64,000 nucleotides of DNA. It comes from Reichenbachiella versicolor. Its GTDB lineage: Bacteria; Bacteroidota; Bacteroidia; Cytophagales; Cyclobacteriaceae. The translations under genes and the position numbers were made by a program. Below the pieces are notes generated by a model. It was not told where the DNA came from and did not search any database. It saw only the letters and a program-made list of their open reading frames with translations. Position 1 is the first letter of the stretch. Each line of letters opens with the position of its first letter. Location: the NCBI RefSeq assembly GCF_003171675.1, contig NZ_QFZQ01000006.1, positions 186,001 to 250,000 on the forward strand, in the 5' to 3' direction. Below, piece after piece: positions 1,083 to 51,708 of this stretch.

Positions 1083-3368
1083 TCAACTAACCTTCTCTAT
1101 CCTCACCTTCACTGACTTACTTATAGGTGTATTACTTTTATCCGCAAACTGATCATGAGGGATCAATACATTAGCCTCGGGGAAGTAGCAAGCTAAGTTG
1201 CCTTTTGGAATATTGTAAGGAATCACTAAGAAGTTCTCTGCTCTACGAACTTGTCTATCATAGGTACTAGTCAAATTGACCACATCAGACTTTTTCAACT
1301 CTAACTCTTTTGCTTCATCAGCATTGATCATGACTACCCTCCGTTCATTGAAGATACCACGATAACGATCATCCAGCCCGTATATAGTAGTATTGAATTG
1401 ATCATGTGTTCGGATTGTCATCAACAAAAATTCATCCTTATCCAGATCATGAGCAGGTAGCGGTGTCACACTAAATTTAGCCTTTCCACCTGGCAACTTC
1501 GAGAAGTCCCCCGTTCTAGTATGATTTGGAAGGTCAAAGCCTGCCTTCTTAGCCCGCTCTGAATAATTGTCAAAACCATTAAAAACTTGTGATATTTTCT
1601 CTCTAGTCAGATCATAGTTGATCCCCAACTCCAGCCATTGGATCTTCGACTCATCACCGAAGTAAGCCTCAGCCATATTGGCCACTATCTCTGGTTCGCT
1701 CATCAAGTTATCAGACGCAGGCTGCAACCTACCTTGCGACTGATGAACACGCCCCATGCTGTTTTCCACTGTCACAAACCTCTCCTTACCGTTAGTCTTA
1801 TCCGCCTCTGATCTACCCAGTGTAGGCAAAATCAAAGAAGTCTTACCTGGCACCAAGTGTGTTCTATTGAGTTTGGTACTAATTGACACAGTCAGATTAC
1901 AATTCATCAATGCCTCTCCAGTGTAAATAGTATCAGAAGCCGCTGACAGGAAATTCCCTCCAAGCGCAACAAAAACCTTAGCATCTCCCTCATGCATCGC
2001 TTTGATACTATGCACTACATCCAGCCCTTCCTCAGCTGGCGGTTGAAAATCAAAAACTCTTTCAAAGGACTCGTTCAGTTTCTTAGAGACATGGTGTGTG
2101 ATACCTACCGTTCGATCACCTTGAACATTGCTGTGACCACGAACGGGACAAGTTCCTCCTCCCTTGATACCTATGCTACCTTTGGCAAGAAGTAAGTTGA
2201 CACAAGCCTTGATGTTATCCACACCATTCTTGTGCTGAGTAAGCCCCATCGCCCAACAGATGATAATTCGCTTATTGTTAGCCAATAGCTCTACGCATTC
2301 ATCAACCTTCTCAGCGGATAGACCAGTCAACTCAAGTAACTCATTCTCCGAATATTGATCTAGCTCTGCCAGTACTTCTTCAAATCCTTGAGTCTTTTCT
2401 TCTATGAATTTATGATCAAATACACCACCCCTTTCAACATCTAAATCCGCCAGTTTTTTCAAGAGGAGTTTCAAAAGCGCTACATCTTGATTGATACGAA
2501 CCTGTAGAAACAGATCCGTAATCGCAGTTCCATTAGCGATTATCCCTTTGGGTTCTTGCGGATTTTTGAATCGCACAAGCGCAGCCTCTTCCAAAGGATT
2601 TACAGTAATTACCTTACCACCCTTAGCCTTCAGTTTCTCCAGCGCTGACAACATCCTTGGGTGATTAGTCCCTGGATTTTGCCCAATGACCATGACTACC
2701 TCAGCATCTTGAAAATCATCCAAAGTCACAGACCCCTTACCTATACCGATAGTTTCGAACAATCCTGCACCACTAGACTCGTGACACATGTTAGAGCAAT
2801 CAGGCATATTATTAGTACCGAATGCTCGAATGAACAGACCGTATAAAAACGCAGCTTCATTACTAGATCTCCCAGAAGTGTAAAACACGCCTTGATTAGG
2901 ATCATCAAGTTGTTTCAATTCATCAGCGATCACCTGAAAAGCCTCCGACCATTCAATAGGTTCGTAGTGGTGACTTCCCGGACGTAGGATCATCGGGGCA
3001 GTGATACGCCCACTTTTACCAATTTGAAAGTCAGTCCAGTTAGACATTTCAGTGATAGAATACTTCTTGAAGAATTCTGGAGTCACCCTTTTGTTAGTAG
3101 CCTCTTCAGCAATGGCTTTCACTCCATTTTCACAAAACTCTCCTAGAGACGAACGGTGCGTAGGATCTGGCCAAGCACACCCAGGACAATCAAAACCTCC
3201 TTTTTGATTCAGCTTCGACAGAGTAGCAATAGACTTTGCAATCCCCATCTCTTTCATCGCATGACCCAAGGCTATTTTAACCGCAGGAAGTCCAGCAGCA
3301 TAGTCCTGCGGTTCTTCAATTTTAATATCTGTAAAATCTGTAGGCCCTACGATGTTGATGTCTCTCAT
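1083..3368 (-). CDS. FdhF/YdeP-family molybdopterin oxidoreductase
   Basis: At 761 residues this matches the usual length (about 760) of the YdeP/FdhA-alpha-like group of the molybdopterin oxidoreductase superfamily. The N-terminus carries only the CPGC pair (Cys61, Cys64) that I associate with this group, not a full N-terminal four-cysteine iron-sulfur signature. Further on are the bis-MGD domain segments MCHESSGAG, IGQNPGTNHPRML and WAMGLTQHKNGVDNI, and a C-terminal dinucleotide-binding domain with TIRTHDQFNTTIYGLDDRYRG. There is no Tat signal, so it is cytoplasmic. E. coli YdeP is linked to acid resistance; a formate-dehydrogenase-like reaction is often proposed but unproven. It lies 75 bases downstream of the esterase gene on the same strand, probably one transcript, divergent from the P450 cluster. 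No fdhD is visible. Confidence 0.88.
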   Translation of the reverse strand: MRDINIVGPTDFTDIKIEEPQDYAAGLPAVKIALGHAMKEMGIAKSIATLSKLNQKGGFDCPGCAWPDPTHRSSLGEFCENGVKAIAEEATNKRVTPEFFKKYSITEMSNWTDFQIGKSGRITAPMILRPGSHHYEPIEWSEAFQVIADELKQLDDPNQGVFYTSGRSSNEAAFLYGLFIRAFGTNNMPDCSNMCHESSGAGLFETIGIGKGSVTLDDFQDAEVVMVIGQNPGTNHPRMLSALEKLKAKGGKVITVNPLEEAALVRFKNPQEPKGIIANGTAITDLFLQVRINQDVALLKLLLKKLADLDVERGGVFDHKFIEEKTQGFEEVLAELDQYSENELLELTGLSAEKVDECVELLANNKRIIICWAMGLTQHKNGVDNIKACVNLLLAKGSIGIKGGGTCPVRGHSNVQGDRTVGITHHVSKKLNESFERVFDFQPPAEEGLDVVHSIKAMHEGDAKVFVALGGNFLSAASDTIYTGEALMNCNLTVSISTKLNRTHLVPGKTSLILPTLGRSEADKTNGKERFVTVENSMGRVHQSQGRLQPASDNLMSEPEIVANMAEAYFGDESKIQWLELGINYDLTREKISQVFNGFDNYSERAKKAGFDLPNHTRTGDFSKLPGGKAKFSVTPLPAHDLDKDEFLLMTIRTHDQFNTTIYGLDDRYRGIFNERRVVMINADEAKELELKKSDVVNLTSTYDRQVRRAENFLVIPYNIPKGNLACYFPEANVLIPHDQFADKSNTPISKSVKVRIEKVS

Positions 3369-3443
3369 TTAATGAAAAGTTTGAAAGTCTATAAAATTAA
3401 AAATAGATGCTGATCACCTTTAAAGGTATAGTGAAGGAATACA

Positions 3444-4247
3444 TCACTTAAGTTGGTCAAAGAAAACAAGAGTATCCACCAAGTGCTCTTGCCAATACTC
3501 CCACTGATGTCCTCCTTCAAATTCCTCGTACGTATGATCGATGGCCGCCTCAGTCAAGTCTGCATGTAGCTTTCGGTTATACTCGATAAGCTCATCTGCA
3601 TTACCACAATCAAATCGCACAGGAGGAAGAGTATCAAGATTTTCCTTCATACAAGTGAAAACATCTTCGTCTTGCCTATCACTTTGGTGATAATGCTCAA
3701 GAGGCTCTTCCACAAAAATCTTCATCTGTTCAATCTCCGTGATGCTACTATGTCCAGATATCCCAGCGTACTGCTTACCATACTTAGCCCCTACTCTCAG
3801 AGCACCGAACCCTCCCATTGACAATCCTGATATGAAAAGCTTCGACTGGTCTGAGGTCTGAGGGATATTCTCTCTGACTGCGGTAGGCACATCTTCTGCA
3901 ATCCACTTCTCAAAATGGAACCCATCATGAGCATTGTAAGCCGAACCATCTCCCCAAAGTCCATCAGATGGCATTGCCAATACGACAGGTTGGATTTTAC
4001 CTTCGTCTATCAATCGCTGAGTAGTAATATGAGCCGCACCCATCATCGCCCAGATCCATGCACTCCCATAGACCCCATGCATCAGTGTAACTATAGGTAA
4101 ATCTTTATGCTCTCCTTTAGGAACAAATACACAAATATCTCCACGACCTTTGAGATTTGGCGTTTTGACCGTAATGAAACGAAGGCCATTATCAGCTTCA
4201 AATTTCGGGTTGGACAGCTCTGTAGTTTTAAATTTTGACTGGGTCAT
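3444..4247 (-). CDS. Alpha/beta-hydrolase esterase (PF00756 type)
   Basis: This 267-residue cytoplasmic protein has no signal peptide. It shows the esterase D/putative esterase layout: an oxyanion region around LMHGVYGS, the nucleophile elbow SGLSMGGFGAL with Ser143, a likely acid at Asp218 in DCGNADEL, and His247 in EGGHQWEYW. The family includes S-formylglutathione hydrolases, acyl esterases and carbohydrate esterases, and the sequence alone does not separate them. It is the first gene of a leftward pair with the YdeP-like oxidoreductase, and it diverges from the AraC-P450 unit across about 200 bases. If the P450 releases formaldehyde, an S-formyl-thiol hydrolase role would fit, but that is inference. 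A deacylase acting on sugars is an equal alternative. Confidence 0.85.
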   Translation of the reverse strand: MTQSKFKTTELSNPKFEADNGLRFITVKTPNLKGRGDICVFVPKGEHKDLPIVTLMHGVYGSAWIWAMMGAAHITTQRLIDEGKIQPVVLAMPSDGLWGDGSAYNAHDGFHFEKWIAEDVPTAVRENIPQTSDQSKLFISGLSMGGFGALRVGAKYGKQYAGISGHSSITEIEQMKIFVEEPLEHYHQSDRQDEDVFTCMKENLDTLPPVRFDCGNADELIEYNRKLHADLTEAAIDHTYEEFEGGHQWEYWQEHLVDTLVFFDQLK

Positions 4248-4450
4248 TTCTCAAGTTTTTTGGTTGTCGTGTCTTTGCAAATTTACGAGCCCGCTCGTGA
4301 TGATCTAGGAAACAGACACAGTTTACAGCACACAAAAGAGGTCTACTACTCATTCAACCTCTTTCTTTATTTTGTTTAAAAAGTTATCTTTTCTGTTTTG
4401 TTAATGATTTTTATCATACAATTGAGAAAAGAATACACAACTATTGAGCT

Positions 4451-5296
4451 ATGAAGGCGGTACTGGAGAAGGTAATTACGGAAGATGAGTCCTCTATCCG
4501 AGCATTCAAATACTCTGCTGATGAGTTTGATGCCCCATGGCATATTCACCCTGAATATGAACTCACCTACATCCTGAAAAGCACCGGAATCCGCTATATA
4601 GGAAACAATATTTCTGACTATCAGACGGGCGAATTAGTCTTAATAGGCCCCAACCTACCTCACTGCTGGAAAAACGAAGAACACCAAAACGAAAAAGCTG
4701 AATCATTAGTCATACAGTGGCCTGCCGAACTCTCAAATTCCCTTCTTCAATACAGAGTAATTCAACATGTAATGAGTAATTCGGGCAGAGGAGTTCTATT
4801 TAGAAATGCTGATAGCATCGAAATTGTAAAAAAGATGCAAGCCATCATTGACGCAAGTGGTCTCAATCGATTTGTGAGATTTGCAGAATTGCTTCAAACA
4901 ATGGATCAATTAAAGGACAAAGTCATACTCGCTGGAGAATCATATGCCTATGACCAGTCCAATGAAACCACTGACCGGATAGAAACTGTACAGAACTATG
5001 TCGACCAGCACTTTTCTCAAAAAATCAAGTTGATCGATGTAGCTAACCAACTCAATATGACGGAGCAGTCTTTTTCCAGATTCTTTAGCAAAATCATGCA
5101 AAGACCATTCTTTGTCTACCTCAATGAATACCGGGTGAATAGAGCCAGTAGATTACTACTAGAAACAGATTTACAAGTCGCTGAAATAGGCTACAAATGC
5201 GGCTATGAAAGTTTACCCTTCTTTTACCAGCAGTTCAAAAAATTCAAAGGTTACTCACCCCTAGGTTTTAGAAAGATGTACCGAAGAATCAAATAG
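4451..5296 (+). CDS. AraC-family transcriptional regulator with cupin sensor domain
   Basis: The first 100 or so residues look like a cupin ligand-binding domain (PWHIHPEYELTYIL, then GELVLIGPNLPHCW). Residues from about 185 to 281 form the AraC/XylS double helix-turn-helix, including MTEQSFSRFFSKIM and the second helix region EIGYKCGYESLPFFYQQFKKFKGYSP. The 281-residue length is typical. It stands about 170 bases upstream of the P450-ferredoxin-reductase genes on the same strand and is divergent from the esterase/oxidoreductase pair, so it is the obvious candidate to control both. Cupin-AraC proteins of Bacteroidota commonly sense sugars; the ligand here is unknown. Confidence 0.9.
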   Translation: MKAVLEKVITEDESSIRAFKYSADEFDAPWHIHPEYELTYILKSTGIRYIGNNISDYQTGELVLIGPNLPHCWKNEEHQNEKAESLVIQWPAELSNSLLQYRVIQHVMSNSGRGVLFRNADSIEIVKKMQAIIDASGLNRFVRFAELLQTMDQLKDKVILAGESYAYDQSNETTDRIETVQNYVDQHFSQKIKLIDVANQLNMTEQSFSRFFSKIMQRPFFVYLNEYRVNRASRLLLETDLQVAEIGYKCGYESLPFFYQQFKKFKGYSPLGFRKMYRRIK

Positions 5297-5469
5297 GGTT
5301 TTCTCAAGATTTCATCCTGCTTTTTATCACACTTTACATGATTCAAATCATAATCACGACAAAATACTTACTTATTAAACTAAAATAAAGAACGATCATC
5401 GCATTTGATTCTACGTCTTTTGTATCGTCAAGTGGCTAGAAACTTGACCAACCGAAAGACAATATCAAA

Positions 5470-6636
5470 ATGAGTGAAATGAATAAAAGTGAATTTCCTG
5501 ATCCATTTGAAAAAGCGCGTGAAGAACGAGGATTTGGAGAAGTAAACGATCAGAACGATCCAGTCAAAATGTTGCTCAGACTCAAGGACGTTCGTAAGAC
5601 GGCGCATAATTGGAAAACTTTCCAGTCTGGCGCTGAACCTGGTCGAATTGTTGTTCCTTCGGAAGTAAACATCAGAGACACTCGACAAATACCCTTTGAG
5701 GTAGACCCACCTGAGCACAAAGGATATAGAGACCTAGTCGAACCTTGGTTCAAAAGACCTCTCGAGGCTGAATATCAAGAAAAACTCACTGAAATCATCA
5801 GTGGTGTAATAGATGAAGCCCTAGAACAGGAAGAAGTAGAAGTAGTAGAAGATTTTTCTCTAAAACTACAATCCAGAGCACTAACATTGCTTTTAAACAT
5901 CCCCTATGAAGAATCCGAAGTATGGATCGGCTGGGGAAAGCACGTATTTAGAAGTGAAGACACTGACCTAGATGCTGACAAAGCCAATATTCTATACGAT
6001 TACCTAGACAAGCAAATCGACAAAGCAATGGAAAATCCCGGCGAGGATTTGTATTCTGTGCTTTTAAACTCTGAAGTTGATGGTAGAAAACTCACCAAAG
6101 AAGAAGTAAAAGGTGTAATGATTTTGACATTCGCTGGAGGAAGAGATACAGTGATCAATGCAGTCACTAATTCAATCGCTTACTTCGCCGAGCATCCCAA
6201 ATCTTTACAAAGACTAGCTGCCGAACCTGAGATCATAGGCAAAGCCGTGGAAGAACTGGTGAGATATTTTGCTCCATTGACGCACATGGGTCGTGTCGTC
6301 ACAGAAGACACACAAGTATGTGAGCATGCTGTCAAGGCTGACTCAAGAGTCTCTCTATGCTGGGCTTCGGCCAATAGAGATGCTAAAGTATTTGAAAACC
6401 CAAACGAAGTTGTAATAGATAGAAAAGTGAATCCTCATGTAAGCTTTGGATTTGGAACTCACAACTGTCTAGGCGCCACTCACGCCCGTCAAATCTTAGC
6501 GATTCTTTGTAAGGTATTAGCTGAAAAGGTTGGTTCTATGGAAATCACCAGCGCAGACGAAAACATTGAAGACTGGGACGAATTCAAGCGCAAAGTGGGG
6601 TTTGACAGTATCAATGTGAAGTTTAATAAGAAATAA
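5470..6636 (+). CDS. Cytochrome P450, class I bacterial type
   Basis: This soluble P450 of 388 residues is complete. It shows DPPEHKGYRDLVEPWF (residues 79-94), the I-helix oxygen-activation motif AGGRDT (222-227), the K-helix ExxR pair Glu262/Arg265, and the haem loop FGFGTHNCLG (326-335) with axial Cys333. There is no membrane anchor. Its two electron-transfer partners follow directly, making a self-sufficient class I system. Marine Bacteroidota carry P450s in the same order with ferredoxin and reductase that demethylate 6-O-methyl-galactose from porphyran (CYP236A). The gene order here fits that, but the subfamily cannot be confirmed by eye. A terpene or fatty-acid hydroxylase remains possible. 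Confidence 0.95.
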   Translation: MSEMNKSEFPDPFEKAREERGFGEVNDQNDPVKMLLRLKDVRKTAHNWKTFQSGAEPGRIVVPSEVNIRDTRQIPFEVDPPEHKGYRDLVEPWFKRPLEAEYQEKLTEIISGVIDEALEQEEVEVVEDFSLKLQSRALTLLLNIPYEESEVWIGWGKHVFRSEDTDLDADKANILYDYLDKQIDKAMENPGEDLYSVLLNSEVDGRKLTKEEVKGVMILTFAGGRDTVINAVTNSIAYFAEHPKSLQRLAAEPEIIGKAVEELVRYFAPLTHMGRVVTEDTQVCEHAVKADSRVSLCWASANRDAKVFENPNEVVIDRKVNPHVSFGFGTHNCLGATHARQILAILCKVLAEKVGSMEITSADENIEDWDEFKRKVGFDSINVKFNKK

Positions 6637-6746
6637 TATTTATTCCGTCACTTAGATAGGCTTAGCGAACGCTAGACTTTAGCAGATCTCTTTATAAAGT
6701 CCTCCTCTTTATTGGCGAAATTGAAGAAACATAAAAAATTACTCAA

Positions 6747-7055
6747 ATGGCAAAAATTACATTTATAACTAGTGACAACGAAACTATCGTTGCAGAAGCT
6801 GACTCAGGATCAGTAATGGAATTGGCAGTAGCCAATAGCGTTTCAGGTATTGACGGAGACTGTGGTGGTGTGTGCTCATGTGCTACATGCCATGTCCATG
6901 TAGATCCAGACCATGTTTCTAAGACTGGCGAAGCAAGTGAAATCGAAGCTGACATGCTAGAACTAGCGGACAATTACAATGAGAGAAGCAGACTATGTTG
7001 TCAAATAGAAGTAAGTGACAAGTTGGACGGTGTAGTCTTACACGTAGCTAACTAA
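6747..7055 (+). CDS. [2Fe-2S] ferredoxin, adrenodoxin/putidaredoxin type
   Basis: This 102-residue protein has the vertebrate-type/putidaredoxin cluster pattern: Cys39, Cys45 and Cys48 within DCGGVCSCATC, and a final ligand at Cys84 or Cys85 in SRLCCQIEV. By analogy with putidaredoxin the last ligand is probably Cys85. The extra Cys43 lies inside the loop. It should shuttle single electrons from the FAD reductase encoded four bases downstream to the P450 encoded 110 bases upstream. It is cytoplasmic and of normal family length. Confidence 0.95.
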   Translation: MAKITFITSDNETIVAEADSGSVMELAVANSVSGIDGDCGGVCSCATCHVHVDPDHVSKTGEASEIEADMLELADNYNERSRLCCQIEVSDKLDGVVLHVAN

Positions 7056-7059
7056 ACCA

Positions 7060-8310
7060 ATGTCAACAAGTACTAATGATCAAACTTGCGTCATCATAGG
7101 CGCAAGTCATGCTGGAGTCAACTTTGCATTTGCTCTGCGTAAAGAAGGCTGGGAAGGCGATATCATCATCTATGATGTAGACCCTGTATTGCCATACCAT
7201 AGACCTCCTTTATCCAAGGCTTATCTTACTAGTGATGACGGAATTGAAAAAAACCTTCTCAAATCAGCAGAAAGCTACGAGAAAGAGAGTATTACACTCA
7301 AACTAGGATCTTGGGTAGAATCAATAGATCGTGAGGCCAAAAAAGTGTCTCTCAAAGATGGCGAAAAACAGCACTATGATAAACTAGTCATCGCCACAGG
7401 AGCAAGACCTATCATCCCTCCCATAGAAGGGCTGGCTGATGCACAAAATGTATACCCTCTCAGAACTGCAGCAGATGTAACCAATATTCGTCAGGCTATC
7501 AATGAAGGTGCCCAAAAAGCAGTCATCATAGGAGCAGGCTATATTGGGTTAGAGATCGCAGCTTCCATGAAGAAACTAGGTGCAGATGTGACCGTCATAG
7601 AACGTGAAGATAGAGTCTTGGCAAGAGTGACCTCTCCTGAAATGTCTAGCTTCTTTGAAACTCTTCATGCTGACAACGGCGTCAAAATAGAAGTTGGTAA
7701 AACAGTCAACAAAATAAAAGCTGGAGACTCTGGTAATCTTGTAATCACTAATGATGACAAAGAATACAAGGCCGATGTCATAGTAGTAGGAGTAGGAATC
7801 AAGGTCAATACCGAACTAGCAAAAGAAGCAGGTATCGAAATAGACAACGGAATCAAAGTCGATTCATCAGCTCGTACCAGTGATCCTCATATATATGCTA
7901 TCGGAGACTGTACCTACCATCACAATCCCCACTATAATAGATACGTCAGACTAGAATCTGTTCAAAATGCAGTAGACCAAGCCAAAATCGCTGCGGCTTC
8001 GATCTGTGGCAAAGAAGTTAAATATGATGCCATACCATGGTTTTGGTCAGATCAATTTGATGTAAAACTCCAAATGGTGGGACTAGCAGAAGGCTACGAC
8101 GAAATCCTAATCCGAGAGGAAAATACCGAAGGGTATAAATTCTCCACATGGTACTTTAAAGGTGACGAATTACTAGCAGTAGATGCTGTAAACAATGCAA
8201 AAGCATATGTAGTTGGCACCAAGTTCATCAAAGATCAAAAAGTCATCGACAAAACCAAGTTGGTTGATTCATCCATTGACTTTAAGCCAGCAAATCTGCT
8301 AGCCGAATAA
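7060..8310 (+). CDS. FAD-dependent ferredoxin reductase (putidaredoxin reductase-like)
   Basis: This 416-residue flavoprotein has two Rossmann motifs: an N-terminal FAD site IIGASHAGVNFAFALR and a central NAD(P)H site VIIGAGYIGLEIAASM. Between them lies ATGARP, and a late FAD contact is seen in DPHIYAIGDC. The C-terminal reductase domain includes PWFWSDQFDVKLQMVG, typical of the Rhodocoxin/putidaredoxin reductase family. It starts four bases after the ferredoxin stop, so the pair is surely cotranscribed. Its role is to move electrons from NAD(P)H to the ferredoxin and on to the P450. Confidence 0.95.
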   Translation: MSTSTNDQTCVIIGASHAGVNFAFALRKEGWEGDIIIYDVDPVLPYHRPPLSKAYLTSDDGIEKNLLKSAESYEKESITLKLGSWVESIDREAKKVSLKDGEKQHYDKLVIATGARPIIPPIEGLADAQNVYPLRTAADVTNIRQAINEGAQKAVIIGAGYIGLEIAASMKKLGADVTVIEREDRVLARVTSPEMSSFFETLHADNGVKIEVGKTVNKIKAGDSGNLVITNDDKEYKADVIVVGVGIKVNTELAKEAGIEIDNGIKVDSSARTSDPHIYAIGDCTYHHNPHYNRYVRLESVQNAVDQAKIAAASICGKEVKYDAIPWFWSDQFDVKLQMVGLAEGYDEILIREENTEGYKFSTWYFKGDELLAVDAVNNAKAYVVGTKFIKDQKVIDKTKLVDSSIDFKPANLLAE

Positions 8311-8360: not shown

Positions 8361-8999
8361 CTACTTCGCTCCAAACTTCTCCAATAACCTTTCACGCTTC
8401 TCTTCATTCAAGTGTACGTCCTCAGCCAGCTGTAGCAATGTATCCTCATCTATAGAACTAGCATATAACATCTTATAGACATCCACTATACTGATACCAT
8501 CAACATACTCTACCAGTTCCATCTTATCACCTGCTTTGACCTCTCCCTCTTCCAGTACTCTCACATATACACCACTGTAAGTAGAATTGAGAAAGTGCTT
8601 CAAGACACCTTGATCGTCAAATCTAATTCCTAACTTAAAACACGGCTCTCGTGGCTCAGACACTTGGACCAATGCCCCTCCGATTCGATAAGTAGATCCT
8701 ATCGTTATTTCAGTTTCATCCAGCCCTTCTACAGTCAAATTCTCACCAAACATCCCAAAAGGCAATTCCTTCTCAGGGTATAATTCCTTCCAGTGAGTAT
8801 AATGCCCTGCACTGTAGAGATAGCATGCCTTGTCATAGCCACCATGATATTTTCTATCAATCACATGATCCCCCTTCACATCACTACTACCTAGGTAAAT
8901 ACCCTCTTCTACTGATTCTTTAAATATACCTGTTTGAACAGGCTTACCACGCCAGATCACTTCACGCTTCTGACCCACATTCGTCGATACGATTTTCAT
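8361..8999 (-). CDS. MOSC-domain protein, YiiM-like
   Basis: This 212-residue protein has a MOSC domain: KYHGGYDKACYLYS, then FGENLTVEGLDE, then VSEPREPCFKLG with the conserved cysteine that binds molybdenum cofactor in YiiM/MOSC proteins, followed by a YiiM-type helical C-terminus ending in the acidic ERLLEKFGAK region. YiiM-type proteins are thought to reduce N-hydroxylated compounds such as 6-hydroxylaminopurine. The gene is convergent with the P450 operon and 15 bases downstream of a small exported-protein gene on its own strand. It is a second molybdenum-related gene within 8 kb of the YdeP-like enzyme. Confidence 0.88.
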   Translation of the reverse strand: MKIVSTNVGQKREVIWRGKPVQTGIFKESVEEGIYLGSSDVKGDHVIDRKYHGGYDKACYLYSAGHYTHWKELYPEKELPFGMFGENLTVEGLDETEITIGSTYRIGGALVQVSEPREPCFKLGIRFDDQGVLKHFLNSTYSGVYVRVLEEGEVKAGDKMELVEYVDGISIVDVYKMLYASSIDEDTLLQLAEDVHLNEEKRERLLEKFGAK

Positions 9000-12794: not shown

Positions 12795-14759
12795 ATGAAA
12801 CAAATACACAGACTTACCTCTCTGGTCATACTACTTGTTATGACGCTAAATGTCTCTGCCCAGCAAAAAGTATGGGAAAGAGATATGACAGATTTCGCCT
12901 ATCAAGTAGGCTGGATGGAACAAACCAATGATGGAACTATAATCGCTGCCGGAGCAAAAGGCCTCTTTGCCATGGACAATAAAACCGGTGCTATCAAATG
13001 GGGCAATGAAACATTGAAAGGAGTTCCAAAACAATCATTTCAAAACATCGCTTCTTTACCGATTTTCCTTGTTGACGCGCCACTGAAAGGAATAGAAGAA
13101 TCTCTTTCAGGAGGTGTTGAAGCAATGAAATCAACTGCAATAGATTTACTGGCATCTGGCGCAAGAAGTGTTATCATCAATTCTGCGACTGGTAGAATCG
13201 TGTATGATACTCAGGAAACAGGCTATAGAATTAAAAACTATAGATTCCTTGAAGATAAGCTTTGCCTTCTTTTTGAAATGACTTATGAAGGCGATGCCTA
13301 TATCATGAAGTTTGACTTGAAAACAAGATCGGAAGCATGGAAGACTAAAATCGGCGGTACGGCTAAAGGTGGTTTAGGCAAAGCTCTAAACACATTAAAG
13401 GCTGGAGGGTATATCAAAAACGACATCATGTTTACTAAAAGTGGAAACATGGTTTTTTGGGCAACAAATCTACTTCCATCGGAAGAAGGTGGTAAGAATG
13501 ACCACATCGTAGCACTAAACTTCGAAACTGGAGAAAAAGCATGGATTACTAACCCTACAAAATGGATTGCTAATTTAGTTTACTCTCCTTTGAACAATCA
13601 ACTTTACATGGGTCGAGCCTTAAGTAAAAAGTTGGTTGTTTATGATCCAGAGACGGGGAAAGATATCACTCCTGACAAGCTAAAGTTAAGAGGACAACTG
13701 ATCGATGTTATTCCTGACATTGAAGGAAGAGACAACTTAGTGCTTGTTGAGACTGAAGGATTCAACCTAATAGATCCTAAATCTAACACCTTTAAGTGGA
13801 AAAAAAGTTTCAAGATCCCTGGCATGACAGAAGTTGTTCCAGATCCTAAAGGGTACATAGCTAACGGACCGACCAAAAAAGGTTCTGAAATTTCATTAGT
13901 TGATACTGATGGAAAATCTATTTGGGATAGTAAAGTAAAAGGACTTAGCTACTACGTTACTCCTTCTCCAAAAGGAGTTCTTTACATCACTAACGAAAGG
14001 TCAAACATCCTTGATTACGCAAAAGGTAAGGATTATTGGAAAAAGGATGTGAAATTTAGAGCTATTCCAGCAGTAGCATATGATGATAAAGAAGACGTAG
14101 TTATGCTTTTTGAGAATAAAAAAGGCTACAAATTTGATCTTAAGTCAGGAGATATCGAGCAATTCGCCGAAGATGTAATTTTAGAAGATGTAAACAAAAA
14201 AACACCTTTGGAAGCAGAAGCTATCGATGCGGGTTACTTTATCTATGATGATCAGCACGTGTCTTTGGTAGATAGAGATGGCAAGTTGATTTACACTAGC
14301 TATTACAAGCCTCTTAAGAGTTTAAATTATCTAGCTCTTGCTTCAAGTGTTGCGAAAACTATGGGATATGACATCGATCTTGAAGGAGCAATGGAAAATC
14401 TAAATAAATTGAAAGCTATCTCAGCTGGAGCAAAAGCACCTATGGATAAACAAGGTAGTGCTGCTAAAGTAACGAAACAATACGGCGGATCAGTAGAAGT
14501 AGATGGCAAAACTGCAGTTGCGTTAGATATCTCGGTAAGCCGATTCTTCAATTCTCAGCAAACTAAGGAAAGTGCTTTTTTAACTTCTAAAGATGACCAA
14601 GGTAAAAAGAGTATTTTCATGATTGACAAAGCTTCTGGAAAGGAAATAGGAACTATCGAATTGATAGAAAAAGAACCTGATTACGTGATTGATGAAGTTG
14701 ACAACCTTGTATTTGTTTGTGAAAAGCAGAAAACAATTAAAGCATATAAAATGAAATAA
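12795..14759 (+). CDS. Exported PQQ-like beta-propeller protein
   Basis: This 654-residue protein has a Sec signal peptide ending NVSAQQ. The mature region is a series of blades recognisable by GLFAMDNKTGAIKWG, ALNFETGEKAWI and YDPETGKDI, typical of PQQ-like or outer-membrane-assembly propellers that bind no PQQ themselves. There is no lipobox cysteine. The middle and end are acidic/lysine-rich with further short blade motifs such as SLVDRDGKLIY and FMIDKASGKEIGTIEL. It is a single gene closed by a strong terminator. A scaffold or binding role in the periplasm is the most that can be inferred. Confidence 0.75.
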   Translation: MKQIHRLTSLVILLVMTLNVSAQQKVWERDMTDFAYQVGWMEQTNDGTIIAAGAKGLFAMDNKTGAIKWGNETLKGVPKQSFQNIASLPIFLVDAPLKGIEESLSGGVEAMKSTAIDLLASGARSVIINSATGRIVYDTQETGYRIKNYRFLEDKLCLLFEMTYEGDAYIMKFDLKTRSEAWKTKIGGTAKGGLGKALNTLKAGGYIKNDIMFTKSGNMVFWATNLLPSEEGGKNDHIVALNFETGEKAWITNPTKWIANLVYSPLNNQLYMGRALSKKLVVYDPETGKDITPDKLKLRGQLIDVIPDIEGRDNLVLVETEGFNLIDPKSNTFKWKKSFKIPGMTEVVPDPKGYIANGPTKKGSEISLVDTDGKSIWDSKVKGLSYYVTPSPKGVLYITNERSNILDYAKGKDYWKKDVKFRAIPAVAYDDKEDVVMLFENKKGYKFDLKSGDIEQFAEDVILEDVNKKTPLEAEAIDAGYFIYDDQHVSLVDRDGKLIYTSYYKPLKSLNYLALASSVAKTMGYDIDLEGAMENLNKLKAISAGAKAPMDKQGSAAKVTKQYGGSVEVDGKTAVALDISVSRFFNSQQTKESAFLTSKDDQGKKSIFMIDKASGKEIGTIELIEKEPDYVIDEVDNLVFVCEKQKTIKAYKMK

Positions 14760-28639: not shown

Positions 28640-29518
28640 CTATTCTCCCCATTCTTCAAAGGACAAACCATTTTGTAGGTATACCAATGAATCTTTGACC
28701 GGCACATCAGCACCTCCGTTACTTGAATAGGTGTATTCATAAACGATACTCTTGTTGTCGTGAACTTTACCAGTCAAATCTTTTATCTCTAATACACCTG
28801 GCTTTTCTACTATCAAGTCTCCAGTAACACTACCATCATCAGCTATTGCCAATACAAGAGTCTCGCCCGGTATTTTAAGCCCTTCTCCTACATTAGGCAC
28901 CGAAATTGAATCCACGCTCACTGTACTTACTTTAAACTGCGTAAACAGCCCCAAAGAATCAGATAGAACGTTACCTCTACCTTCATTGTAAGCATAAGCT
29001 ATGGTATCCTCAAACCCTAGCTGAAAATAATCACCATGATATTCATTAATGTACTTAACCATTACAAAAGTTTTGCTTTGATCAACTAACAAAGTATCGG
29101 TAGTATACTGCACGATTTCCAATGGAATCACGTAGTTGTTACCTGTAGACTTAGGGTCGTCAAAGAAAGCTTGTGTAAAAGTGACTTCAAATACACCATT
29201 AAAATCACCTGCTTTGATCTCTATCAATGAATCAGATGGTAAGTTCATTCTGTAATGTGTATCTGGTAATAGTTCACCACCATCTGGAATTTGATCTTTT
29301 ATCAAAGAGATGTAAGCAAATTCATTGACGTCAGAGTCCCTTTTACCACCCAAAACAACACCAATTTCAATAGTTGAGTCTGGAAGCACTACAGTCCTAA
29401 CAGGCCTCTCAAAAGGAAAGTAAACCGAACTCGTATCAAAATTGTCTTTATAGTCATCATAGCAAGCAGTAGCTACTACCATGATTAGACCTAATATTAC
29501 ATATATTGTTTTCTTCAT
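28640..29518 (-). CDS. DUF1735/DUF4843-like surface lipoprotein (PUL accessory)
   Basis: This 292-residue lipoprotein has a signal ending VATACYDDYKDN; acidic residues after the cysteine resemble the Bacteroidota surface-export signal. The sequence SSVYFPFERPVRTVVLPD and later strands fit the BT_3987-like N-terminal domain (DUF1735/DUF4843) of glycan-binding lipoproteins, often encoded after SusD. The remainder is beta-rich, with the segment YIPLEIVQY-like NNYVIPLEIVQY. It is the last gene of the operon, 19 bases after the SusD stop. It probably acts as a surface glycan-binding protein, but the domain assignment is by resemblance. Confidence 0.7.
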   Translation of the reverse strand: MKKTIYVILGLIMVVATACYDDYKDNFDTSSVYFPFERPVRTVVLPDSTIEIGVVLGGKRDSDVNEFAYISLIKDQIPDGGELLPDTHYRMNLPSDSLIEIKAGDFNGVFEVTFTQAFFDDPKSTGNNYVIPLEIVQYTTDTLLVDQSKTFVMVKYINEYHGDYFQLGFEDTIAYAYNEGRGNVLSDSLGLFTQFKVSTVSVDSISVPNVGEGLKIPGETLVLAIADDGSVTGDLIVEKPGVLEIKDLTGKVHDNKSIVYEYTYSSNGGADVPVKDSLVYLQNGLSFEEWGE

Positions 29519-29537
29519 GTTTTTAGTACTTTATTAT

Positions 29538-31334
29538 TTACCAACCTTCATTTTCTGTCAATGTTGGAACTTTCAACAATTCATCAATTGGCATGGGACC
29601 AAACTTCATGTGCTCATCGAATTGAGGAGTGAACAATTCTGAGATATCGTAAGAATCAGTACTTCCTGATCTAGTAATAGTCATTTTCTCCACAGTGGTA
29701 TTTAAGTCACTTAAATCACCTCCCCATCTTCTCAAGTCAAAGAAATAATGTCCTTCGAAGCATAGTTCTATTCTTCTTTCATTTCTAATAATCTCTCTGA
29801 CCACACTCTGGTTTGAACTGTTATCTGTTAAGTAATCATCAGAGAGAATACCACCTCTTCTTCTTACTTCTGCGATAGCATCTACTGCTGTCAAGCCGAA
29901 CCCTTCTGGATCATTTTCAGGACCATATGCTTCGTTCATTGCTTCTGCATAGTTGAGGAATACTTCTCCCTTTCTAATCAATGCGAAATAATGAAATGCG
30001 TTAGTTCCCTGCCCTATGTCAGCACCTTTAGCTAACCACTTTCGTAAATAATATCCAGTACGGCTAGAATTACTTTCATTTGCTACTCCTGTAGCGCCTC
30101 CTGAAACATCTTTTCCTCCTTGAAATAAATCAACAGTTTCACCATTTTGGAATGTTACTCCATTATGAAAAACTGTTAAATCCAATCGAGGATCTCTACC
30201 GGCATATGGATTAGTAGCGTCATATCCACTTGATGGATCTGAAATTGGATAGCCATTGTCTGCCATAGGGAATGCATCTACTAGATTTTGCGTAGGATTT
30301 GTTTGCCCTTGTCCTCCAAAAGATGGCGGAAAGTTTCTAGTTTCTATGCTCCTATTTTGACCACCAATCCTAGCCATGATCATTTCAGCATTCTCATAGT
30401 TAGTGAAATACGCATCATAATCAGAATTACCAGCATCACCGTAGACATTTGGAAGAGAAGTTCCTACCTCATCCATCACTTTAGCAGCATATGCAGCAGC
30501 CATTTCATTCATTTCAGTTCTATTGTCCTGTTCATATAGTTCACTCCCTGCATAGAGATAAACTCTGGACAATAAAGCATTTGCCGCTACAGATGTAGGT
30601 CTACCATATTCTTGAGCACTATAGACAATTAAATCAGCGCCAGCTGTACCATCATAAGCCGCTGGTAAAGTATCAGCTGCTATTTTCAAGTCGGTAGCTA
30701 TCTGATCGATTACTTGCGAAAATGTAGCTCTTGGAAGACTTTCTATATCTTGAGGGTTTTGAAGCTCCGTTATTAATGGGACTCCCATTACTTCTCCTGA
30801 TTCATCAATACCGGCAAACCTTTTAAGCAAATCAAAATAGAAATAACCTCGTAGGAAATGTGCCTCTCCAGTCAACCTTTGTCTAAGTTCTGCATTGATG
30901 ATAGAATCCTCTTCTGATGGTCCCTGAAAAAAGATTAGCAATGAATCTTCTCTCAATTCAGACCCAACAGGCTTTAATCCATAGGTAATAAACCTATTGA
31001 CCGACTGGATACCTTTATAGGTATTATTCCAGTTATTCAATGGATTAATAGCCGCCTGCCATGTTTGTTCTATAGTTCTACTCAGTGCCGTATTCAAATT
31101 ATTACGCACTGCATTTTGAGTAGCACAATCCAAAAAACCTCCGTAATGATCGTGGCCATTTGGAAGTACATTGTAAGCATTCATCAAAAACCCTTGAACA
31201 ATTTGAGGGTTTCCTATGATCTCCTCAAGAGTCTGCTCATTTGAATACTTTGGTTCAAAGAACTCCTCTTGACAGGCACTTAAAACAATAAGTGCCATGA
31301 ATAATGCATATATATATTTTTTCATTGTTATCAA
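29538..31334 (-). CDS. SusD/RagB-family glycan-binding lipoprotein (second pair)
   Basis: This 598-residue SusD homologue has a lipoprotein signal ending LSACQEEFFEP, the TPR-like N-terminal region with LRGYFYFDLLKRFAG, and the C-terminal SusD-like part with RNERRIELCFEGHYFFDLRRWG. The C-terminal LTENEGW ending is characteristic of the family. It forms the lid of the SusC transporter encoded four bases upstream and captures oligosaccharides at the cell surface. The substrate is not deducible from this sequence alone. Confidence 0.95.
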   Translation of the reverse strand: MITMKKYIYALFMALIVLSACQEEFFEPKYSNEQTLEEIIGNPQIVQGFLMNAYNVLPNGHDHYGGFLDCATQNAVRNNLNTALSRTIEQTWQAAINPLNNWNNTYKGIQSVNRFITYGLKPVGSELREDSLLIFFQGPSEEDSIINAELRQRLTGEAHFLRGYFYFDLLKRFAGIDESGEVMGVPLITELQNPQDIESLPRATFSQVIDQIATDLKIAADTLPAAYDGTAGADLIVYSAQEYGRPTSVAANALLSRVYLYAGSELYEQDNRTEMNEMAAAYAAKVMDEVGTSLPNVYGDAGNSDYDAYFTNYENAEMIMARIGGQNRSIETRNFPPSFGGQGQTNPTQNLVDAFPMADNGYPISDPSSGYDATNPYAGRDPRLDLTVFHNGVTFQNGETVDLFQGGKDVSGGATGVANESNSSRTGYYLRKWLAKGADIGQGTNAFHYFALIRKGEVFLNYAEAMNEAYGPENDPEGFGLTAVDAIAEVRRRGGILSDDYLTDNSSNQSVVREIIRNERRIELCFEGHYFFDLRRWGGDLSDLNTTVEKMTITRSGSTDSYDISELFTPQFDEHMKFGPMPIDELLKVPTLTENEGW

Positions 31335-31338
31335 GATT

Positions 31339-34173
31339 TTAATAAGATAGACTCAACCCTAGAGATACCGTTTTCATCAATGGACCATTACTGATACCTG
31401 AATTCATATTGTCCGCATTAAAATCTGGGTGAGATGAAATCGACAATAGATCAGTTCCTCTTGCAAATACTCTTAGCTCAGAGGCTCCTCCCAATGCATT
31501 ATTAACTGCTGCGGGGAATGTGTAACTTAACTCTATGTTCCTAAGGGTAAAGTAGTATGCATCTTCTACCCAATAAGATGAAGTCACATAACTATGTGTG
31601 TTATTTGTGGAGAGTCTTGGGTGAGATGCATCTGTATCCTCTGGACTAGACCAAGCATTCAAGGCATTGGCCGCATATTTATTGTTTCCAATACCTCTAT
31701 AACCAGCTACACCTAACATGTTTCTATCATACCCAGCAGCTCCTTGTCCTAATACGTATAGATTAAAGCCCTTGTAATTCAAATTGACGTTCAAACCAAA
31801 ACGATATCTTGGCAATGAGTTTCCAAGCGTAGTGAAATCTTCAAAGTTGATAAGGCTATCTTTCTTCAAATCAACATATTTCAAATCCCCTCCTACGGCA
31901 TTACCGTATGATGACCTATTTGGGTCTTCTTCATACTCCTCTGCACTATTATAGAAACCTGTAGAAATCAATCCTGCTATTCTATCAATTGGCTGTCCAT
32001 CTAGGTTCAAATTCTCAGAAGCGAAAACAAGTCCTGTTTTCTCAAATACTGCTTCTGTGAACGTCATATAACCTCCTACTGAGTAACTCAAGTCATTGAC
32101 CTTTCCACTATAGGCTAGTTCAATCTCAACTCCATGGTTACTAGCTTCACCAAAATTGATAAAAGGAACATCTTCTCCTAAATAACCTGGGAAAACTGTC
32201 TCTGGTTGAAGGGGAATATCTGATCTGTACTCGTTGAAATAATTAAACTCAAAAGACAGATTATTGAAAACCACAGCTTCCAAACCGATATTATATTCTG
32301 TCAACACTTCAAAACCAATATCTGGATTACCTGAAGTTGAAATGGTGTAGCCACTTGTACCAGGCATACTTGGACCTTGTGGACCAAATCTTATAAAACC
32401 TTCAGTATTGTAAGCACTTCTATATTGGTAGTAGCCTAGTCCTCCGTCGTATCCCATCTGACCACCACTCACTTTGAGTTTTAAATGGTTGATTTGATCA
32501 ATGGATTGTAGAAAGCTTTCATTACTCGCTACCCAAGCTAAACCTCCAGCAGGGAACAATCTAAAACGATTTCCTGCTTCTAACTTATTTGATCCCATAT
32601 AAGAAAGGTCTAATTCAGCTACATATTTGGAATCAAACATATAATTCAACCTACCACCTAAATTGATGTTTTTGTTAGGTTGTGCCGTACCTGTTCTTTC
32701 TCTTTGTTGGATTATAGTATTTGCGTTAGCTAAAAGGGCATGCTTGTCAAATACTCTGTCATAGGTAAGTGATGACGTGAATCCATAATTTCTATAAAAC
32801 TCATCATCAAACCTCTCCACAGAAGATGTAGGATCTTCAGCAGTTACCTGTGAACTATCTTGTAAATAAGAATTGTAACCTATTTGCTTACCTACTCTTA
32901 CTCTAGATAAGGCATCAGCTGATATATAATTATTCCAAGTCAACCCTTCAACTCCTATAGCAGAAAAATCAATAGTTCCTCCTAAATTCAGCTGGGACTG
33001 TCTAGTTTGGTTTTCTGTATAGCCTGCTGCTAGGAGTTCTCCTTCTACATTAATACCATCATTAGAATCGTTTGTTCCAAAGCCAACAGTACCATCTGGA
33101 GCTGTAAAGTATATCGGATATGCATTAGGTCTAGTGGAACTCAATTCATTGAAGAAACCTGTTTTTGTATTATTATTTCTAGTCCAAGTTTGATACGTCA
33201 TTTGATTCGAACGAGAAAGTTCGATTCTACTAGCCATATCCATTCTCATCTTCAGCCATTTGTTTACCTGCATATCTACATTACCTCGGACATTGAATCT
33301 TTGATATTTTGTTCCTTCTCCGATGGCTTCTAACCCATCTTCCGTCAGGTAACCTGCAGAAACGAAATATGAAGTTCGATCTTTAGTATTAGTATAAGTA
33401 CCAAAAACCCTTTTAAATGAAGTCATTGATTTTAAATACCTATCATAATAATCCACATCTGGTAGTGAATCACTAATTCCCGCAGTTCTAAAGTCATTAA
33501 GTACTTCTTCGGAATAAAGTGGATCTAAACCATCATTTTCTAATGCTTGATTATATGCTCTAGCATAATCGTATGAGTTCAAAAAATCAGGAAGGTGGGT
33601 TGGTTTTCTAAATCCAACTTCAGCATTGAAACTTGCTTTTTTCTCTCCTGGTTTCCCCCTTTTAGTAGTCACAAGTACAACACCATTAGCTGCCTGTGCT
33701 CCATAAAGCGTTTTAGCAGTAATATCCTTTAGTACAGTTATTGACTCAATCTCATAGTAATTCAATGACTCAAGGCGTCTATTGGCTATTCCATCGATTA
33801 CAATCAATGGATTACTGTTGTTTACCAAATTGCCATTGTCATTTTGTCTAAATGAGTGAAAACCGCGAACTCCTAACCAAGAGTTATCACCTCCAGGAGC
33901 AGCCGCTCCTTTAAAAACCAATACACCCGCAGCCTTACCGATCATAGCTGATTCTACATCTAAATCAGCAGTAGCGATTTGGTCTTGAGTGATTAGGGAA
34001 GTAGCCCCTACCACTCTTTCCTTATCAAGTTTGGCAAAGGGAAGATTTACCTTCTCTTTTTGCGGAATAATGGTCGTATCCATTTCCACAATCACATCAG
34101 CAACCTGCCCGTACGTCACTCCAATAGAGGTAGCCATCGTACAGATTGCTATTAAATATTTTATATAGTTCAT
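31339..34173 (-). CDS. SusC/RagA-family TonB-dependent transporter lacking the CPD domain
   Basis: This 944-residue outer-membrane transporter has a signal peptide ending VTYGQ. Unlike the upstream paralogue, it has no carboxypeptidase-D-like domain before the plug; only about 25 residues separate the signal from ERVVGATSLITQDQIA. The plug includes WLGVRGFHSF, PLIVIDGIANRR and VLKDITAKTLYGAQAANGVV. The beta-barrel ends in an aromatic residue (LGLSLSY). It probably imports oligosaccharides together with the SusD protein encoded four bases downstream. The shortened N-terminus marks it as a divergent SusC subtype. Confidence 0.95.
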   Translation of the reverse strand: MNYIKYLIAICTMATSIGVTYGQVADVIVEMDTTIIPQKEKVNLPFAKLDKERVVGATSLITQDQIATADLDVESAMIGKAAGVLVFKGAAAPGGDNSWLGVRGFHSFRQNDNGNLVNNSNPLIVIDGIANRRLESLNYYEIESITVLKDITAKTLYGAQAANGVVLVTTKRGKPGEKKASFNAEVGFRKPTHLPDFLNSYDYARAYNQALENDGLDPLYSEEVLNDFRTAGISDSLPDVDYYDRYLKSMTSFKRVFGTYTNTKDRTSYFVSAGYLTEDGLEAIGEGTKYQRFNVRGNVDMQVNKWLKMRMDMASRIELSRSNQMTYQTWTRNNNTKTGFFNELSSTRPNAYPIYFTAPDGTVGFGTNDSNDGINVEGELLAAGYTENQTRQSQLNLGGTIDFSAIGVEGLTWNNYISADALSRVRVGKQIGYNSYLQDSSQVTAEDPTSSVERFDDEFYRNYGFTSSLTYDRVFDKHALLANANTIIQQRERTGTAQPNKNINLGGRLNYMFDSKYVAELDLSYMGSNKLEAGNRFRLFPAGGLAWVASNESFLQSIDQINHLKLKVSGGQMGYDGGLGYYQYRSAYNTEGFIRFGPQGPSMPGTSGYTISTSGNPDIGFEVLTEYNIGLEAVVFNNLSFEFNYFNEYRSDIPLQPETVFPGYLGEDVPFINFGEASNHGVEIELAYSGKVNDLSYSVGGYMTFTEAVFEKTGLVFASENLNLDGQPIDRIAGLISTGFYNSAEEYEEDPNRSSYGNAVGGDLKYVDLKKDSLINFEDFTTLGNSLPRYRFGLNVNLNYKGFNLYVLGQGAAGYDRNMLGVAGYRGIGNNKYAANALNAWSSPEDTDASHPRLSTNNTHSYVTSSYWVEDAYYFTLRNIELSYTFPAAVNNALGGASELRVFARGTDLLSISSHPDFNADNMNSGISNGPLMKTVSLGLSLSY

Positions 34174-34198
34174 TTGATTCTATTTATCGATTGAGAAA

Positions 34199-35995: not shown

Positions 35996-36006
35996 ATCAA
36001 TATCGT

Positions 36007-39000: not shown

Positions 39001-39171
39001 TAAAACATTTACACCTGGCAGTGGATCACCGTTCTCATCGGATATTTTTCCGGATACTGTCACCTGCTGTGCTATTGCACTCTGAGGCAACATCGAAGCG
39101 AGTAAAAATAATATCATACAACATGCTCCCCATCTTGAGAAGTCACGAAGTAACTTAGTCTTTTCACGCAT
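36007..39171 (-). CDS. SusC/RagA-family TonB-dependent transporter (operon leader)
   Basis: This 1054-residue transporter is the first gene of the operon. After a long signal peptide (to about residue 34, SAIAQ) comes a carboxypeptidase-D-like domain, VTVSGKISDENGDPLPGVNV, then a TonB-box-like stretch LEEVVVVGF. The plug has ILIRGKASWGDSAPLILVDG and VLKDASATAVYGSRAANGAI, and the barrel ends RFNVGFRLNL. Together with the SusD encoded next it should import oligosaccharides across the outer membrane. The leader carries the GAGGGG and CCCGTT motifs described separately. Confidence 0.97.
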   Translation of the reverse strand: MREKTKLLRDFSRWGACCMILFLLASMLPQSAIAQQVTVSGKISDENGDPLPGVNVLIKGAATGTITDIDGEFTLSLNEGAVLSFSFIGYKTQEVSTAGRSRIEVGMVLDVESLEEVVVVGFSEQKKASVVGAIVTTKGENIVQSGGVTTVSEALTGLLPGVTTQQNAGIPGASQADILIRGKASWGDSAPLILVDGVERDMNNIDPNEIASVTVLKDASATAVYGSRAANGAIIVTTKSGKKGEVKVSFTANFGVKLPTTDFDFLTPFPENLRAKNIGLINDKRYAELVAESRIAEWEDPNRNPDTHSYTDWPRKLLGPGYNQSYNLNISGGNDFVTYFTSLGHNNDGDLFQLEKQPDYDPRTTQKRFNFRQNVDFKLTKTTKLGVKLAGEVTNWNGNPMTATGDGLGFSPGGNQDPNYNLELNQFYSWPQVGPQPQFSTGEFSREENSQTNANYLVKLQESGSVQKRSNRLWTDFTLNQDLKNLVPGLKLRAKFAVNNYVQYEQKMQLTTLQYSSAPEDRTFDEDGNLVGLGLRIEGADAQSVQNRPKLQNETIKKYNKRLYYEGGFDYNNTFGKHTVTGMALFYRQESVNGADNLWPDRIESYVGRATYDFDTRYFAEINGAYQGTNKFGPDYRWGLFPSAAVGWILTNESFMEGTKSWLDHLKFRYSYGISGNDRNANRFGYRTTFTEDTNNNRGVYFGPNKQNIGKLNEARIANEKAGWEESTKQNLGIEFGFFKSQLTLNVDMFNESRTDIPFELEDRISVFAGYPEKPETTTGETKNQGVEFDLGWRDVINADWSYWVKGNFSITENRILLEDDPLGAPDYQKQAGHPIGTQFAIIQDGLYQSWDDVYNNPRSGFDMQNIIPGDMRYIDFNGDGIVSALDRVAIGNSRFATKSYAFSGGVQYKGISLTARFNGVFGMDKLLSRSYLWEWESRSQEGFLYTYSDMQDHWTPENPGAKHPSLHATRHVHSNETSSYYIRKADYLKLQMVEVAYQVPMNSVKAISSLQLYVNGNNLWTWTSLPDAFDPESRRVEVYPIARRFNVGFRLNL

Positions 39172-39608: not shown

Positions 39609-39639
39609 AAAGGCTATCTCAGAGGGTGAGATAGCCTTT
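39609..39639 (-). terminator. Intrinsic terminator of the PKD lipoprotein gene
   Basis: A perfect 13-bp stem (39609-39621 with 39627-39639) has a five-base loop. Read leftward it runs into a T-rich tail, 22 bases after the stop codon. Confidence 0.9.
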
Positions 39640-39660
39640 AAATTTTATTCTATAGTATTT

Positions 39661-43462: not shown

Positions 43463-43492
43463 GATTGTTTAATGGGTCTTTTACGATTAAAA

Positions 43493-43599: not shown

Positions 43600-43664
43600 T
43601 AGCTAGAAATTGCCAATTGCTTCCAGCGTTGTCCAAAATATTATGATATATGTCAGGTGAATAA

Positions 43665-43700: not shown

Positions 43701-43718
43701 GCTTTCTTTAAAAGATTA

Positions 43719-51632: not shown

Positions 51633-51644
51633 TAGACCGATTTA

Positions 51645-51678: not shown

Positions 51679-51708
51679 AAAACTTAGCATCAACTCGTTA
51701 GCCACTGC

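Follow-up and report, generated by a model that had tools for sequence, protein, structure and literature searches.

The window analysed here, a stretch of 64,000 nucleotides from Reichenbachiella versicolor (contig NZ_QFZQ01000006.1, positions 186,001 to 250,000), carries a cytochrome P450 locus that we read, on balance and with modest confidence, as a module for the O-demethylation of 6-O-methyl-galactose, a red-seaweed sugar, with an oxidative exit for the one-carbon (C1) unit. It would combine a P450–ferredoxin–reductase trio, an alcohol dehydrogenase (ADH), an esterase (EST) and a YdeP/FdhF-type molybdoenzyme under an AraC switch. We infer the following course of catalysis and binding. 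The P450, with its ferredoxin and reductase, would hydroxylate the methyl group of 6-O-methyl-galactose, as its orthology suggests; the carbon would exit in the form of a hydroxymethyl adduct; the ADH, whose gene lies elsewhere in the genome, would oxidise this to a formyl ester or thioester; EST would release formate from that product, and the YdeP/FdhF enzyme would convert formate to CO2. Through a direct-repeat operator, AraC would control the two divergent units and, probably, the ADH gene far away. New here are the ADH-EST-YdeP operon divergent from AraC, found in relatives, and the window's own arrangement, a variant of a known demethylation module in which a formate-dehydrogenase-like enzyme sits in the operon and the ADH would act in trans.

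Six intact open reading frames form two units that diverge from a spacer of 203 bases (4248–4450). On the minus strand lie EST, an alpha/beta hydrolase of family PF00756 with the nucleophile motif GLSMGG (3444–4247), and, 75 bases beyond it as the last gene of the leftward operon, an FdhF/YdeP-family molybdopterin oxidoreductase (1083–3368; TIGR01701, 847.5 bits against a cut-off of 582.15) of the subfamily that we label 'A'. On the plus strand an AraC-type regulator with a cupin sensor domain (4451–5296; PF12833 (HTH_18), PF07883) is followed after 173 bases by the P450 (5470–6636; PF00067), after a further 110 by a 2Fe-2S ferredoxin (Fer2, 6747–7055; PF00111) and after 4 by an FAD ferredoxin reductase (7060–8310; Pyr_redox_2, PF07992, and Reductase_C, PF14759). 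An earlier note on this DNA, made from the letters alone, had described six genes of these families around a spacer of about 200 bases, and all of this holds; the YdeP-like gene is real but lies to the left of the 3444–8310 span that the note had given. Promoter and terminator scans returned no more than in shuffled sequence.

Three samples were compared: the best 80 of 115 loci with P450 relatives in species genomes (the named loci, L numbers), 59 relatives (G000–G058) that include the window's own genome (G000), and a Zobellia-family set of 329 genomes, 24 with the P450 and 305 without. Against solved structures the P450 scores 667 bits with PDB entries 6g5o and 6g5q, every other PDB match staying at or below 168 bits, and it is 76% identical to 6g5o (291/383). 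Its relatives in these best 80 loci are 70–80% identical and come from Bacteroidota and gammaproteobacteria; many of the hosts are named for algae or agar, and four are Zobellia. In all 80 the ferredoxin gene directly follows the P450 gene, and the reductase gene directly follows the ferredoxin gene. We take 6g5o to be the Zobellia enzyme and CYP236A, the name that the earlier note also used, to be that of the group. A Zobellia CYP structure has been reported as solved and the P450 group as demethylating 6-O-methyl-galactose (Brott et al. 2023, PMC10033563, cited throughout from its available text, in which the code 6G5O does not appear). By its sequence, then, the window trio appears to belong to the 6-O-methyl-galactose demethylase type, as had been supposed.

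The esterase travels with this P450. EST is present in 61 of the 80 named loci; the other 19 have neither EST nor ADH, some of them because the contig ends. Among the named loci several are short or truncated in this way (e.g. L013, L016, L041, L066), so the absence of genes there says little. Across whole genomes of the Zobellia-family set, EST occurs in 24/24 with the P450 and in 11/305 without it (Fisher p ~2e-28, uncorrected for ancestry), and among the 59 relatives the seven that have the P450 are also the ones that have EST, with G046 as an eighth (7/7 versus 1/52). The GLSMGG motif is kept in 62/62 EST sequences, its counterpart in FrmB being GHSMGG. This co-occurrence suggests that EST belongs to the P450 system, a tie that the earlier note had drawn from the layout; the neighbourhood of CYP, redox partners, esterase and ADH was already in print (Brott et al. 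2023, PMC10033563).

The molybdoenzyme shares the operon in two lineages. Four Flammeovirga loci (L006, L007, L020, L029) carry an ADH-EST-YdeP operon divergent from AraC, and a further one, L013, is cut off by the contig end after EST. In the window's genus, G003 and G007 repeat this divergent layout as YdeP-EST-ADH, AraC, P450 and reductase; G001 shares the gene set but has two additional genes separating AraC from P450. The YdeP of G001 (L127, 6649–9031) is split into two frames, by sequencing error or decay. The proposed link of the molybdoenzyme to this operon is thereby borne out, and the divergent order, which the earlier note had suggested looking for in other genomes, turns up again in the four Flammeovirga loci and in the three genomes of the window's own genus, with an ADH added. 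In Aquimarina latercula (L063) YdeP adjoins AraC, which alone could be chance. Genome-wide, a YdeP/FdhF-type protein was found in 44/49 named P450 genomes (E<=1e-50; the 49 come from 50 of the 80 named loci, with L080 left out), in 7/7 P450-bearing versus 14/52 other relatives (E<=1e-100), and in 21/24 P450 genomes versus 104/305 without P450 in the Zobellia-family set; genome size is uncontrolled in all three comparisons. Judged by identical coordinates, G014 is the same genome as G098/L057 and G026 the same as G072/L014. Since the trio is consecutive in every named locus, an EST relative is present in most and the divergent order recurs, the arrangement of the window genes exceeds chance.

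The partner that the window lacks is a class-III-like ADH, which the earlier note missed. It lies near EST in all 61 named P450 loci with EST and is intact in 60, where it is adjacent to EST in 46, one gene away in 10 and two genes away in 4; in 12/12 P450-less EST loci the two are directly adjacent. In the remaining named locus, L072, ADH adjoins EST but is frameshifted (12928–14095, in two frames; sequencing error or decay). No ADH remnant was detected at E<=10 in window positions 3000–6500. The window's genome has a single strong ADH, on contig C2 (549499–550611; stretches L082 and L132; 544 bits). A canonical FrmA-type class III ADH was also considered and set aside, the next match after the C2 gene reaching only 35 bits (E<=0.001). 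In the 16 kb around the C2 ADH no sugar-degradation gene is evident from the translations, which were read without a family search. The C2 protein is 87–89% identical to the ADHs of Seonamhaeicola algicola, Aquimarina algicola and Ochrovirga pacifica, among which it nests, and only 67% identical to the Flammeovirga type. It and its three flavobacterial kin have lost 3 of 4 structural-zinc cysteines, which are kept in the other 57/60 P450-linked ADHs; three are missing from each of the ADHs akin to it in L015, L047 and L077. Probably, then, the window lineage lost its native ADH and took up a substitute from flavobacteria.

An AraC relative is present in 58 of the 80 named loci. The operator matrix was trained on four ADH|AraC spacers from elsewhere, with the window left out, and describes a direct repeat, TATTTTG-N14-TATTTTG, of period 21; the pattern was first noticed by eye in output that included the window, and its choice was not blind. 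Over the 127,934 positions of the 64-kb window, this four-site matrix places a related repeat of 21-bp period in the divergent spacer at rank 1 (29.0 bits; putative operator 1, 4365–4398, plus strand) and a site in the AraC|P450 spacer at rank 2 (11.6 bits; putative operator 2, 5357–5390, minus strand, opposite in orientation to operator 1). A second site upstream of the P450 also ranks 2 in L127, L128 and L130 (together genomes G001, G003 and G007) and in L053; in L029, L006, L007, L013 and L020 none was among the top three. With a five-site matrix that includes the window's own site, operator 2 takes rank 3, and the best site lies just before the P450 in L113, L057, L016, L041, L062 and L064, with no such site in L014 and L109 (one genome). 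Upstream of the C2 ADH, 114 bases from its conserved start, lies the best four-site match of its 16-kb stretch (11.0 bits), a score that is not unusual in itself, being reached somewhere in 2/60 random 16-kb sequences and in 4/25 real stretches, three of the four in EST|PhyH or ADH|AraC spacers. Only the matrix trained on other genomes brings the sites out: when the window's two spacers were searched for words in common, the result (13 matches of 16) did not exceed that of shuffled sequence. Given the same direct-repeat site at both divergent promoters, a single AraC regulon for both units, as first suggested from the layout, is plausible.

The points that weigh against our reading concern its genetics, its molybdoenzyme and its dehydrogenase. 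All co-occurrence counts are raw, uncorrected for ancestry or genome size. Among the neighbourhoods read (the 61 named P450 loci, the 12 P450-less loci, G001, G003 and G007), the window is the only EST locus without an ADH near EST. Operator 2 is no stronger than the chance maxima of random 64-kb sequence (n=15; best 16.8 bits, with 3/15 reaching 11.6), so that its case rests on position. Within the 10-kb flanks in which P450 neighbourhoods were read, close YdeP relatives occur in only 5/80 named loci.

Molybdenum formate dehydrogenases need FdhD, a sulfur carrier. FdhD was not found (E<=1e-10) in 6/6 relatives with YdeP of subfamily A (G000, G001, G003, G005, G007, G014), a clade with support of 100/100; it is present in 15/15 relatives with the other subfamily (50–57% identical), in several of them adjacent to YdeP. 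Its presence splits exactly by YdeP subfamily, even inside the window's genus (Fisher p 2e-5). Subfamily A also occurs apart from the P450: G005 has it without one, G014 has it on a different contig, 45/305 P450-less Zobellia-family genomes carry it (by a score line of at least 980 bits, drawn by eye), and 8/8 stretches of 9.5–14 kb around other subfamily-A genes (L175–L182; six P450-less and two P450-bearing genomes) contain no ADH, EST or P450. Given these stand-alone genes and P450-less carriers, subfamily A would have a wider role and would have been recruited into this operon in some lineages. One possibility is that this subfamily does not need FdhD for its maturation, the other that it falls outside the classical formate dehydrogenases, and our confidence in the step from formate to CO2 is lowered because FdhD was not found with it.

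What speaks for that step is the active site. The Cys-His pair and the Arg that correspond to U140/H141/R333 of E. coli FdhF are kept in 37/37 aligned relatives (one row N-terminally partial, two rows from one genome). Only the first two of the FdhF 4Fe-4S cysteines (C8, C11) align in the window YdeP, and E. coli YdeP has the same pattern, with another Cys nearby. FdhF/YdeP members act as formate dehydrogenases in Pseudomonas putida, where gene deletion and complementation were judged by formate tolerance, and M. extorquens has a related enzyme, Fdh4A (PMC10308882, available text); the same source covers the need for FdhD in part and places PP_0256 in one transcript with fdhD. The earlier proposal of a formate dehydrogenase thus keeps its catalytic residues and is weakened by the missing FdhD and the stand-alone relatives.

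EST is by sequence nearest to feruloyl-type and general esterases. Against the S-formylglutathione hydrolase profile TIGR02821 it scores 30 bits, far below the cut-off of 281.7, and to FrmB it aligns only locally (38 bits over 61 residues). A predicted model built from 51 of the 62 EST sequences (pLDDT 92.7) matches several S-formylglutathione hydrolase structures at Z 25–28.5, tied with feruloyl and other esterases. Fold comparison was accordingly dropped as a discriminator, the two classes not being separable for this model. The modelled fold would fit a small formate ester as substrate, without proving it.

Deletion of the ADH in Zobellia impairs growth on 6-O-methyl-galactose and not on galactose, and the enzymes of Zobellia and Formosa (ZoADH, FoADH) are reported as inactive on formaldehyde, galactose and 6-O-methyl-galactose, as well as on formaldehyde with glutathione, mycothiol, bacillithiol or other thiols (PMC10033563). 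The same work reports a narrow active site and a preference for aromatic aldehydes, excludes formaldehyde detoxification as the role of the ADH and proposes a thiol yet to be identified. Because these assays were negative, free formaldehyde and the common thiol adducts are disfavoured as substrates; candidates are the hemiacetal product of the P450 or another adduct of formaldehyde with an alcohol. A sugar hemiacetal is itself argued against by the narrow pocket. The word hemiacetal is absent from the main text of PMC10033563, and in the text available we found no report of one as a tested ADH substrate. Tentatively, and with considerable doubt, we suggest a portable pair that lets the methyl group exit: ADH would convert the sugar hemiacetal to a sugar formate ester, EST would split this into sugar and formate, and an FdhD-independent YdeP would burn the formate, so that formaldehyde is never free; the pair would serve both P450s and dioxygenases of the PhyH family, the latter often beside uronate-catabolism genes. 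Such a route would make the ADH necessary in vivo yet inactive on formaldehyde, the tested thiol adducts and the methylated sugar.

A different account would send free formaldehyde to general pathways, have ADH and EST act on some other algal-sugar compound (an aromatic or acylated side product) and make YdeP an unrelated passenger of stress or acid resistance. We consider this unlikely, though it deserves to be taken seriously: the negative formaldehyde assays (PMC10033563), the nearness of EST to feruloyl-type and general esterases, the tie of E. coli YdeP to acid stress (PMC10308882, available text), the occurrence of ADH-EST without a P450, the missing FdhD and the solitary subfamily-A genes all agree with it. 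It sits badly with a three-gene operon kept in both Flammeovirga and the window's genus, with the conserved formate dehydrogenase residues of YdeP, with EST in every P450 genome of the Zobellia-family set, and with the substrate-specific growth defect of the ADH deletion.

Our preferred reading of an oxidative C1 exit also has a special form, oxidation in the manner of FrmA and FrmB via some thiol, with ADH acting on the S-hydroxymethyl-thiol, EST on the S-formyl-thiol and YdeP on formate. This is the pathway of the earlier note with the ADH added, and within the preferred reading it is the form that we rather doubt. ADH is 34% identical to FrmA over its length, EST belongs, like FrmB, to PF00756 and has S-formylglutathione hydrolases among its best structural matches, and a thiol is what Brott et al. 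proposed (PMC10033563); against this, all thiols tried were inactive (PMC10033563), and EST is remote from the known hydrolases in both profile score and FrmB alignment. As originally stated, the S-formyl-thiol step is not supported, the dehydrogenase that it needs being absent from the window (one lies elsewhere in the genome) and its homologues inactive with thiols (PMC10033563). Very improbable, finally, is assimilation by the ribulose monophosphate (RuMP) pathway as the formaldehyde sink, as reported for Zobellia, with the remaining genes auxiliary. Induction of RuMP genes in Zobellia is cited (PMC10033563), and hexulose-phosphate synthase passes the TIGR03128 cut-off in 5/49 named P450 genomes (three Zobellia, one Arenibacter and one metagenome-assembled genome of Seonamhaeicola); the other 44 have no match over the cut-off, nor has any of the 59 relatives, and the seven P450-bearing relatives lack even a full-length weak match. 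RuMP therefore does not serve as the usual sink across these genomes, and for the window's genome (G000) it was rejected, a 30-bit fragment being the only match. Taken together, the earlier note is partly supported: it was right on the P450, the tie of the esterase and the likely single regulon, and overlooked the ADH and the prior report; the FdhD gap was beyond its reach.

Yeast methylformate synthase acts on a hemiacetal. In methylotrophic yeasts this zinc ADH produces methyl formate and has a part in detoxifying formaldehyde (PMC1781073, available text); it forms a formate ester, as proposed here, but is methanol-based, eukaryotic and free of P450. Closest to the window is the system by which Zobellia and Formosa demethylate 6-O-methyl-D-galactose (Brott et al. 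2023, PMC10033563): its P450 trio is orthologous, its esterase and ADH come from the same families (Zobellia loci L027, L037, L048), and an AraC relative lies nearby in most loci. Unlike that system, the window has its ADH outside the locus and a YdeP/FdhF enzyme in the EST operon, and no RuMP synthase was found in its genome. The frmAB and adhC-FGH systems bring the same two families together under the same logic, from hydroxymethyl adduct through formyl ester to formate and its oxidation; our ADH and EST are remote homologues of theirs (34% overall for ADH, a local match for EST), and the homologous ADHs are reported as inactive with glutathione (PMC10033563). Formate dehydrogenases of the Fdh4A and PP_0256 type share the TIGR01701 family and the Cys-His and Arg residues, the membership of PP_0256 being taken from PMC10308882 (available text), without an alignment here; they differ in that the window's YdeP subfamily goes without FdhD in its six carrier relatives, the other subfamily having it in 15/15.

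In the open literature, including the available text of PMC12316285, we found no report of the YdeP link, of an ADH-EST-PhyH grouping or of the hemiacetal route, and a search on PhyH, demethylation and polysaccharide utilization returned no paper. The earlier claim that the link between esterase and molybdoenzyme was undescribed therefore appears to stand for YdeP and falls for the esterase, already in print with the ADH (PMC10033563). Brott et al. (2023) left open the role of the ADH needed for growth on 6-O-methyl-galactose; the ADH-EST-YdeP operons suggest an answer, formate. If this is true, methylated algal sugars would be used in a way that avoids formaldehyde, common to P450- and dioxygenase-based systems, and a large molybdoenzyme family would have an FdhD-independent branch.

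The wider pattern comes from EST without a P450, found in 12 genomes (G046 and 11 from the Zobellia-family set). Seven of these 12 loci include a PhyH-type gene: directly beside EST in L163, L164, L167, L170 and L173, directly before ADH in L166 and four genes away in L171; the other five have no PhyH-type gene in the stretch. The L163 copy is a PhyH by Pfam (PF05721, 108 bits), the others being named by similarity. Altronate-dehydratase-type genes occur in 5 of the 7 PhyH loci (Pfam-named in L163), and operator-like sites are present between EST and PhyH in L163 and L164 and between ADH and AraC in L170. Four P450 loci (L037, L038, L048, L054) also carry a PhyH gene. This distribution suggests that the ADH-EST pair is a general step after oxidative demethylation, whatever the oxygenase.

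Elsewhere in the window, a MOSC-domain gene (8361–8999) is convergent to the reductase; it was considered as a module part and rejected, none of the 80 P450 loci giving a MOSC match (E<=1e-8). A sulfatase (43719–45404) and a glycoside hydrolase of family GH2 (45875–48322) lie ~35–40 kb from the P450; with SusC/SusD-like pairs near them they make 28640–48322 a possible sugar locus, 20–40 kb from the P450. The stretch 48376–56157 holds lycopene-cyclase-type, flavin amine-oxidoreductase-type and DPRP photolyase-type genes, the second of which we read as a carotenoid desaturase.

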